Shown in pieces: positions 53,173 through 56,249 of a DNA stretch of 64,000 nucleotides. The translations under genes were made by a program, and so were the position numbers. Origin of the DNA: Hyphomonas sp. GTDB taxonomy: Bacteria; Pseudomonadota; Alphaproteobacteria; Caulobacterales; Hyphomonadaceae. The notes beneath the pieces were generated by a model. It was not told the DNA's origin and did not search any database. It saw only the letters and a program-made list of their open reading frames with translations. Every line of letters begins with the position of its first letter. Within the stretch, counting starts at the first letter, position 1. The DNA is taken from assembly GCF_022844445.1 (NCBI RefSeq), contig NZ_JALHLS010000001.1, positions 1 through 64,000 on the forward strand, in the 5' to 3' direction.

Positions 53173-53179
53173 GCGGGCC

Positions 53180-53451
53180 TCAGCCCGGCGCTGCCTGCGC
53201 CTGGCCCTGCAACCGGTTGATCGCGGGTCCATGCTCCTCATCGCGCCATAGCCTGCAGATCTGGCGCGCCACTCCGGTAGAGCTGACGAACAGTCACAGA
53301 CCATTGTGTTGGGCAGGAAGCTCGAGCCGGTGAACGTCCAACGTTCCTTCGGCGCACGTCGGCCGCCGTCAGAATCCGCGAACGCCTGCACAGCAACATA
53401 ATCCTGTCCGGGAACCAGATGTCTGAGCGGTGGCGTCGGCGAAGTCTGCAT
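53180..53451 (-). pseudogene. Decayed DUF3601-like gene (frameshift plus in-frame TGA)
   Basis: LRHLVPGQDYVAVQAFADSDGG…ERWTFTGSSFLPN, then -1 frame GL*LFVSSTGVARQICRLWRDEEHGPAINRLQ…*. Confidence 0.5.
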
Positions 53452-53757
53452 CAGCCTGCATGTTCTTGCGGTGTTGCCGGCATCGCCGTCGCTGACGCCA
53501 TATTGGGCGCGCGTGTACAGCGGCTGGTAACCGGCGCAACCTTACGCATTTATAATCTGTCCCATTCCCTACAGGATTCAGGGCGTTAGCCCGCGCCCGC
53601 CCGCCCCCGCGCAGAAACCAGCCCGGCCCCGCCTTGCCAGCTTACAGGCGCCATAGTTTCGTCACCGTCAGCAGCGCGGGGCATGGGCGCCTCGTGTTCG
53701 GATCGGGACGGACCCGATGGTGGCGGGTCCGAACGGAAGGCGACGGGGCAAGTGACA

Positions 53758-55062
53758 ATGGCGTTTGAAGGCAAGGCACAGGTGGCGGAGAAGCCCGCCG
53801 AATTCGAGGCGCGCCAGACCGGGCGGCGCTGTTTCGTCATCCTCCCCTATGCAGCGCCGAGTACGCCCGGCACACCGGCCATAGACTTTGACGCCGTCTT
53901 CCACGAGATCATCCAGCCGGTCGCCGAGGATCTCGACCTCGACTGTATCCGCTCCGACCGGGTCAGCCGGTCCGGCCTCATCCACCGCGAGATGGTGGAG
54001 AACATCATCGACGCAGATGTGGTGATCGCCGACATCACGCTCGGCTCGCCGGACATCTTCTTCGAACTCGGCATCCGCCAGGCCGCGCGCCGCGCGGGCA
54101 CTGTCGTCATGTGCCATTCCGGCAGCAATGAGGATTTCAACATTACCGGTGTTCGCGCGCTGGACTATGAACTTCCTCCCGAAGGCGCTCCCGCCCGCGC
54201 GCAAATCCTGGCCGACTGCCGCGCCCTGCTGCGCACCCACATCAAGAACAGCCTTGACAACCGCGCGACGGATTCAATCGTCCATTCATTGATCCCGGGC
54301 ATCTCTATCCGCCTGCCGGATCGTCCGCTCCCGGAGCGTCGCTACCACGTCTACAAGCTCGGCCTTGCCGGCATGACTGGCCCGAAGGCCGCCCGCCAGA
54401 TCGAGATCATCACCGGCGACATCGCCGACATTGACGATATCGACGTCTGGGTGAACCCCGAGAACACGCGCATGGAACTCGCGCGGCTGCATGACAGCTC
54501 CATCTCAGCCACCATCCGCTATCTCGGCTCGCGCCGCGACCGGCACGGTTTCGTGCGCGACGACGCGATCACACGCCTGCTGCGCAGCAAGGTCGGCGCC
54601 AGCCACCGCACCGGCATCGAGCCCGCCACCACGATGCTCACCAGCGCCGGCGCCCTCGCCCGCACCAACAAGGTGAAGCTCCTTGTCCACGTCGCCGCCC
54701 ATCAGGGTGAGCCCGGCCGCGGTTACCAGCTGATTGGCGCCTACCGCAAATGCGTCACCAACGCGCTCGCCGCCGTCGACCAGCATAATGCCGGCTTCAG
54801 CGCCAAGCTAAACGCGAAGTCCGCCCTGCGGTCGGTCCTCCTGCCCCTCTTCGGTGCCCGTTCGCCCGGAGAATCGCCCCACGAGCGCGTGCAGGGCCTG
54901 ATCCACGCCGCACACCAGTACCTGCTCCATTCGGCCGACACACGGATCGAGCGCGTCGCCTTCCTCGCCTGGACCCAGGTGGACCTTGAGCTCTGCCAAG
55001 CGGCCCTTCACCGCCTCGGCCTGAAACCCGCCGGCGCCCCCAGAGGCCCCGGCAAGGCCTGA
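53758..55062 (+). CDS. Fusion: N-terminal nucleoside 2-deoxyribosyltransferase/TIR-like domain + C-terminal macro-like domain
   Basis: CFVILPY…DFDAVFHEIIQPVAEDLDLDCIRSD…GLIHREMVENIIDADVVIADITLGSPDIFFELGIRQA; IEIITGDIADIDDIDVWVNPENTRMELA…VKLLVHVAAHQGEPGRGY. Longer start at 53683 possible. Confidence 0.7.
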   Translation: MAFEGKAQVAEKPAEFEARQTGRRCFVILPYAAPSTPGTPAIDFDAVFHEIIQPVAEDLDLDCIRSDRVSRSGLIHREMVENIIDADVVIADITLGSPDIFFELGIRQAARRAGTVVMCHSGSNEDFNITGVRALDYELPPEGAPARAQILADCRALLRTHIKNSLDNRATDSIVHSLIPGISIRLPDRPLPERRYHVYKLGLAGMTGPKAARQIEIITGDIADIDDIDVWVNPENTRMELARLHDSSISATIRYLGSRRDRHGFVRDDAITRLLRSKVGASHRTGIEPATTMLTSAGALARTNKVKLLVHVAAHQGEPGRGYQLIGAYRKCVTNALAAVDQHNAGFSAKLNAKSALRSVLLPLFGARSPGESPHERVQGLIHAAHQYLLHSADTRIERVAFLAWTQVDLELCQAALHRLGLKPAGAPRGPGKA

Positions 55063-55154: not shown

Positions 55155-55170
55155 GCACTATATATGGTGT
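55155..55170. promoter_or_regulatory. NrdR-box-like palindrome GCACTATATATGGTGT
   Basis: 14/16 match to acaCwAtATaTwGtgt by eye, 41 nt upstream of nrdB. Confidence 0.6.
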
Positions 55171-55211: not shown

Positions 55212-56249
55212 ATGGCTGACGGCAACGCGAACCTTCCCGGCCTGCTCACCCCGAGCCACGCCTACAAGCCGTTCCGCTATCCGTGGGCATACGAGTTCTG
55301 GAAGAAGCAGCAGCAAGTCCACTGGATGCCCGAAGAAGTGCCCCTCGGCGAGGATTGCAAGGACTGGGCGGTGAAGCTGTCGGACGCCGAGCGCAACCTG
55401 CTGACCCAGATCTTCCGCTTCTTCACCCAGTCGGATGTCGAAGTCGGCGCCAACTACATGACCAACTACATGCCGCGCTTCAAGCCGGTGGAAGTGTCGA
55501 TGATGCTGGCCTCGTTCTCCAATATGGAGACAATCCACATTGCGGCCTACGCTCTGCTGCTCGAGACGATCGGCATGCCGGATTCCGAATTCTCTGCCTT
55601 CATGGAATACAAGGAGATGTCGGCCAAGCACGACTATCTCGGCCAGTTCGGCTGCGAGACGAACGAGGACATCGCCGTTTCGATGGCCGTGTTCGGCGCC
55701 TTCACCGAAGGCCTGCAGCTATTTGCCTCCTTCGCGATGCTCATGAACTTCCCGCGCTTCAACAAAATGAAGGGCATGGGCCAGATCGTGACCTGGTCCA
55801 TCCGCGACGAGTCGCTTCACTGCGAAGGCATGATCAAGCTTTTCCACACCTTCTGCGCCGAAACGAACGTGATGACGGACGAGTTGCGCGAGAAGATCCG
55901 CGAGTGCTGCCGCACCGTGATTGCGCTGGAAGACAAGTTTATCGACCTCGCCTTCGAGATGGGCCCGGTCGAAGGCATGACGCCAGCCGACATCAAGAAC
56001 TACATCCGCTACATCGCCGATTGGCGCCTCGGCCAGCTGAAACTCGAGCCGATTTACGGCATCGACAAGCACCCGCTGCCCTGGCTGTCGGAAATCCTCA
56101 ACGGTGTCGAGCACGCGAACTTTTTCGAACAGCGCGCCACCGAATACTCCAAGGGCGCCACTAAGGGCGACTGGCACGGCGAAGACGGCGTCTGGGGCCG
56201 CTTCGATGAACGCCGCAAGAAAGCCGCCGAAAGCGTGCCCGCCGAATAG
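55212..56249 (+). CDS. nrdB: Class I ribonucleotide reductase beta subunit
   Basis: FSNMETIHIAAYALLLE (E-xx-H-xxx-Y radical/iron site), RDESLHCEG. Confidence 0.96.
   Translation: MADGNANLPGLLTPSHAYKPFRYPWAYEFWKKQQQVHWMPEEVPLGEDCKDWAVKLSDAERNLLTQIFRFFTQSDVEVGANYMTNYMPRFKPVEVSMMLASFSNMETIHIAAYALLLETIGMPDSEFSAFMEYKEMSAKHDYLGQFGCETNEDIAVSMAVFGAFTEGLQLFASFAMLMNFPRFNKMKGMGQIVTWSIRDESLHCEGMIKLFHTFCAETNVMTDELREKIRECCRTVIALEDKFIDLAFEMGPVEGMTPADIKNYIRYIADWRLGQLKLEPIYGIDKHPLPWLSEILNGVEHANFFEQRATEYSKGATKGDWHGEDGVWGRFDERRKKAAESVPAE

Follow-up and report, generated by a model that had tools for sequence, protein, structure and literature searches.

A TIR/deoxyribosyltransferase-like head joined to a macro domain in Hyphomonas, a candidate macro-gated NAD+ glycohydrolase

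What might be the function of a single polypeptide that joins a TIR- or nucleoside 2-deoxyribosyltransferase (NDT)-like domain to a macro domain, and what does its position next to nrdB mean? Such a protein is encoded in the window, the 64,000-nucleotide stretch of a Hyphomonas sp. contig that was analysed here. At 53758..55062 (+), the translation runs for 434 codons without an internal stop, while the reverse strand contains four stops across the same interval. The start, MAFEGK, is identical in 15 aligned homologs, and dN/dS values for close homolog pairs lie between 0.07 and 0.19, with constraint in both halves. The conserved start and the purifying selection indicate that the fusion frame is not a product of chance; the 434-aa frame of the original prediction is therefore real, and the motifs quoted from it occur in the protein as written.

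The N-terminal half (residues 21 to 185; 53818..54312, +) had been described as TIR/deoxyribosyltransferase-like, and our searches agree. It is matched by the PADLOC model "Effector, TIR" (PDLC00733; E value of 1e-8), and a 16-row profile of the domain retrieves DNPH1/Rcl structures (E value of 1.5e-5), whereas the match to Pfam Nuc_deoxyrib_tr (PF05014) is weak (E value of 0.09; 13.4 bits versus a cut-off of 28.8). Among solved structures, DNPH1/Rcl are the closest to the domain, the solved TIR NADases being farther in sequence. AlphaFold models alternating strands and helices, and this Rossmannoid fold, together with a conserved catalytic-type Glu, places the domain in the TIR/DrHyd class. 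The Glu in question, E103 of the motif FFELG (codon at 54064..54066, +), aligns with the YELG Glu of DNPH1/Rcl and is the predicted catalytic residue. The Glu of DNPH1 is catalytic. E103 is invariant in the genus and present in four lineages, being lost only in the patatin-linked relatives discussed below; the gene is thus not the housekeeping gene devoid of catalytic residues that would have spoken against the original prediction.

A second position bears on the substrate. By motif alignment, with strand 1 lying outside the HMMER alignments, F26 (codon at 53833..53835, +) occupies the place of the active-site Tyr of NDT and DNPH1. Phe is found here in all Glu-bearing rows that cover the site, and Val or Ile in the Glu-lacking rows. 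In other proteins this residue is Tyr in NDT and DNPH1, as opposed to usually Phe or Ala in NADase TIRs (PMC11204291). The alignment would thus favor a ribose substrate such as NAD+ and, because the active-site Tyr position is taken by Phe, makes a deoxynucleotide substrate less likely. Judged by these residues, the N-terminal domain probably cleaves NAD+. It also occurs as a movable head before other C-terminal parts, for example, in TRAFs-binding proteins. A search of plasmids returned N-domain matches only, within TRAFs-binding/DUF4071 proteins, and no relatives of the macro half; in a search of phages, some of S. aureus and pneumococcus matched the N-terminal domain weakly, and viral contigs searched with macro and full-length patterns contained no relative.

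The C-terminal half (residues 209 to 427; 54382..55038, +) yielded nothing usable as a single sequence from Pfam, NCBIfam, or PDB phmmer searches. A profile of distant relatives, in contrast, retrieved macro domain structures, namely, TTHA0132 (3.7e-8), macroH2A1.1 (1.1e-7), and the PARP14/15 macro domains. Similarly, AlphaFold reached a pLDDT of 35 from 15 close homologs and a mean pLDDT of 82 from a 30-row alignment that included distant homologs, and Foldseek aligned the model with macroH2A and PARP macro domains at TM-scores of up to about 0.8 on the target, several of the matched macroH2A-type folds having been solved with ADP-ribose. This agreement between profiles and predicted structure confirms the macro assignment of the original prediction. 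The expected ADP-ribose pocket residues are likewise present. D221 of the GD motif (codon at 54418..54420, +), aligned with the GD of TTHA0132, corresponds to the adenine-side Asp of macro domains and is kept in nearly all relatives. The NPEN motif of loop 1 (residues 233 to 236; 54454..54465, +) aligns with NAAN of TTHA0132 and supplies N233 and N236 of the NxxN pattern, with E235 and N236 invariant across all macro rows. Fold, Asp, and NxxN together define the domain as a member of the macro superfamily, and on these grounds it probably senses ADP-ribose-type molecules. Separately, the ASENT and SxSxxxR motifs of the fusion family recur in a TM-macro protein (L078:1000-2082; PF01661 just above cut-off) that belongs to another class of the phylum.

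Relatives matching the protein over its full or nearly full length occur in other genera of the family and in one further family of the order; among 385 sampled genomes of the class and 398 of the phylum, no additional fusion lay outside the order. Four of these relatives (L099, L100, L134, and L135) have a NUDIX gene directly upstream that is matched best, among NCBIfam models, by those of the YffH/AdpP family and of ADP-ribose diphosphatase; the L099 gene scores above the TIGR00052 cut-off. This gene neighborhood strengthens the link to NAD or ADP-ribose chemistry that had been proposed for the Hyphomonas protein. Five relatives overlap a large gene for a TM and patatin-like protein of 916 to 1094 aa with hydrophobic N-terminal stretches, as read by eye (L096:8497-11409, L097:8756-11671, L098:4974-7724, L100:8577-11861, and L135:9285-12566). 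The L096 partner scores above the Pfam patatin cut-off (E value of 3.8e-8), those of L100 and L135 fall below it, and those of L097 and L098 are linked to the L096 patatin by homology. Neither a NUDIX nor a patatin gene adjoins L095 or the Hyphomonas genes; L101 has no patatin downstream, and its contig ends upstream of the gene. PADLOC gave no match for the patatins tested or the NUDIX partners tested.

Two further features of these loci were observed. L098 and L100 share a cluster (L098:9063-13651 and L100:1030-5395) encoding a protein of about 700 aa, a lipoprotein-like one of about 300 aa, and a membrane protein of about 470 aa, none with a Pfam match and with the gene order rearranged between the two loci. 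In L134, a few genes from the pair of NUDIX and TIR-like-macro genes, an 829-aa protein (L134:1005-3494) fuses TIR to a DnaB-type replicative helicase, with Pfam matches to TIR_2, DnaB, and DnaB_C and a ThsB-like PADLOC match.

In the alignment, all five patatin-linked rows lack both E103 and F26, and each row that has no patatin partner retains E103; the macro residues are kept with and without patatin. Counted by leaves, this exclusion sets five lineages against four, with a chance of 1/126; after grouping of related rows, it is about three lineages against three, or 1/20. The sequence pattern is therefore suggestive of a real exclusion. Since the patatin-linked relatives keep the macro domain behind a dead head, head and phospholipase look like alternative outputs, and the simplest reading of the alignment would be a macro module serving as the constant sensor. 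The patatin gene and the dead-head macro gene, joined in L100 and L135 by the upstream NUDIX gene, form a candidate three-gene system.

We propose that the Hyphomonas protein is a macro-gated NAD+ glycohydrolase contained in one polypeptide, a model to which we assign about an even chance. In this scenario, the macro domain would bind ADP-ribose or an ADP-ribose-type nucleotide and would control the N-terminal TIR/NDT-like domain, in which Glu103 would cleave the N-glycosidic bond of NAD+. In relatives lacking the Glu, the same macro module would act with the membrane patatin-like phospholipase in trans, and in some loci, the ADP-ribose-diphosphatase-type NUDIX protein would clear the signal. 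The domain identities, the conserved residues, the gene associations, and the stable position in the genus are established by the analysis, whereas the ligand, the substrate, the gating, and a role in the stress response or in phage defense are inferred. Type II Thoeris offers a precedent, as it pairs an NDT-like TIR enzyme with a macro effector that binds ADPR (PMC11204291). Several points argue against the model: the head is nearer in sequence to DNPH1 than to the solved TIR NADases, the exclusion between E103 and patatin spans about three versus three independent lineages, and in Hyphomonas the gene has a fixed site surrounded by housekeeping genes and no NUDIX or patatin partner, a setting atypical of defense islands.

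The same precedent gives rise to an alternative that we consider unlikely, in which the N-terminal domain, like ThsB, would make an ADP-ribose derivative for an unlinked effector, with the macro domain acting as feedback or buffer. NDT-like ThsB proteins do pair with macro effectors, and the Hyphomonas protein carries no effector domain besides its head. However, no linked effector was found in Hyphomonas, and where a patatin is linked, the head has lost its Glu and so cannot be the generator. The likeness to type II (TM-macro) Thoeris lies in a TIR-class domain with relatives that include NDT and DNPH1 and in a macro domain for which ADPR-type nucleotides are the expected ligands (PMC11204291). 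Type II Thoeris consists of separate ThsA macro and ThsB genes, whereas here one polypeptide without TM helices carries the macro domain at its C terminus, which places the protein outside that type. Furthermore, the macro-linked ThsB subfamilies have Tyr at the marker position where the fusion has Phe (PMC11204291), and the PADLOC ThsA and ThsB models did not match the fusion protein.

The position of the gene raises another alternative, in which the protein would be linked to ribonucleotide reductase as a DNPH1-like N-hydrolase or transferase for deoxynucleotides and its macro domain would sense a nucleotide. Besides the closeness of the DNPH1/Rcl structures, with which the head shares the Rossmannoid class and the aligned Glu, the stable neighborhood speaks for it. 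The gene is present in 16 of 42 Hyphomonas genomes (one copy split over two contigs), mostly recorded as Hyphomonas or Hyphomonadaceae MAGs, and all 16 carriers have a cyclophilin gene upstream and/or nrdB downstream, as far as the contigs reach. One distant relative, moreover, lies near a mutY-like gene, as judged by eye. Nevertheless, nrdB (55212..56249, +), which is found in 41 of the 42 genomes whether they are carriers or not, has a promoter of its own, marked by an NrdR-box-like palindrome (55155..55170, +) with one mismatch to the pattern, none expected by chance, and conservation in carriers. Since this promoter stands between the two genes, we rejected a common operon; the fusion gene is not obviously part of an nrd operon. 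Relatives in other genera lie elsewhere, not near nrdB, and 26 of the 42 genomes lack the fusion gene altogether. Together with the ADP-ribose-diphosphatase type of the NUDIX partners and the Phe at the Tyr position, this makes a nucleotide-pool enzyme rather improbable, and the tie to nrdB looks incidental. The protein also differs from DNPH1 and NDT in its score below the Pfam cut-off and in its added macro domain.

The neighborhood also corrects the view that the gene is a recent insertion beside a decayed gene. The gene upstream encodes a cyclophilin-type isomerase (PF00160; E value of 4.5e-25). Recent insertion was rejected, as all Hyphomonas carriers share one site near nrdB and fall into two groups on the nrdB tree. 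Non-carriers lie between these groups, with several weak nodes, and have different genes upstream of nrdB; the scatter is consistent with old presence and loss. A promoter-like leader block (ACCTTACGCATTTATAATCTG...; 53538..53582, +) is conserved in both carrier groups, although a sigma-70 scan did not detect it. Between the cyclophilin gene and this leader, the window has 368 bp (53173-53540) that are absent from all other loci compared and may be the "decayed gene" of the earlier reading. A minus-strand reading there resembles a gene remnant, for which Pfam gave no confirmation; a DUF3601-like identity, guessed from the letters, was dropped for the same reason. In one carrier (L020:7306-9148), a second ORF and a gene with a TIR domain (L020:8005-8961, minus strand) have entered the interval that separates the fusion gene from nrdB; conflict-type genes can thus be accommodated at the site. 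Three loci labeled as Acidobacteria or Sulfopaludibacter MAGs (L023, L027, and L028) contain genes 91 to 94% identical with the same neighbors, which suggests mislabeled or mixed public bins.

A search of Hyphomonas for a patatin partner found none, and NUDIX and patatin queries had no match in the 64-kb window. Lack of an AdpP-type NUDIX was rejected as a carrier-specific trait, as no genome of the genus, carrier or not, scored above cut-off. The fixed chromosomal site in the genus differs from a defense-island or mobile-element location, and its stable housekeeping setting speaks for a resident gene of the stress or innate type and against an island gene acquired recently.

Many bacterial macro domains are hydrolases, and one could envisage an eraser, in which the macro domain would hydrolyze ADP-ribosyl conjugates or ADPR esters and the head would process the released nucleotide, a bifunctional arrangement that would fit the NUDIX neighbors. 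We doubt this alternative. In place of the GGGV-type loop that follows NAAN in MacroD, the C-terminal half has ARxxDxSxSxxxR, with the family motif SxSxxxR at residues 248 to 254 (54499..54519, +), and the nearest folds are of the macroH2A type, whose macro domains are described as non-catalytic binders (PMC11204291). Although macroH2A-type ADP-ribose-binding domains provide the best fold and profile matches, the fusion macro domain is about 16% identical, bacterial, and joined to an enzyme-like head, with a loop of its own. Because GD221, NPEN233-236, and SxSxxxR are kept and the glycine-rich loop is absent, the predicted role of reader fits better than that of eraser. Finally, a non-catalytic sensor, in which both halves would only bind ligands and the protein would regulate other partners, would suit the conserved family members with a dead head and the nucleotide-binding inactive members of the TIR/DrHyd/SLOG class (PMC9503650), but the invariance of E103 across the genus and its presence in four lineages, unexpected for a pure binder, make it very improbable.

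Returning to the macro-gated glycohydrolase, other known systems resemble it in part. Swarozyc/DUF4062 TIR-like NADases also combine a TIR-like domain distant from TIR and NDT, a conserved Glu, and a C-terminal auxiliary part (PMC13174449); the fusion protein differs in lacking a DUF4062 match in Pfam scans and in having a macro domain as its auxiliary part. The relatives encoded with a patatin-like phospholipase recall CBASS, whose patatins of the CapV type form a nucleotide-gated effector class, but their patatin is a large TM protein with a macro partner, no cyclase gene was seen, and the arrangement is not present in Hyphomonas. PADLOC matched only the TIR head and has no model for the macro half. 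Among open-licence papers, in which an absence is weak evidence, we found none on macro, patatin, Nudix, and phage together and, for macro, deoxyribosyltransferase, and TIR, only the Thoeris paper (PMC11204291). Each domain is already known; for the fusion and its gene set, we found no paper, and PADLOC models reach no further than the TIR head.

Few described systems use macro domains for ADP-ribose-type signals, type II Thoeris being the clear case, in which the sensor drives TM-helix clusters. The relatives that have lost the enzyme site and are encoded beside a phospholipase hint at a family, so far little described, of stress or defense proteins gated by ADP-ribose. Quite tentatively, they may represent an undescribed class of ADP-ribose-gated bacterial modules for immunity or stress. 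Here, the output of a conserved macro sensor would be either a TIR-like NADase fused to it or a membrane patatin-like phospholipase encoded separately, an ADP-ribose diphosphatase would be the off-switch, and Hyphomonas would have the single-gene form. If true, a macro module that swaps its head for a phospholipase as the Glu is lost would be a natural experiment on sensor-effector wiring, predicting that head and phospholipase are interchangeable outputs.
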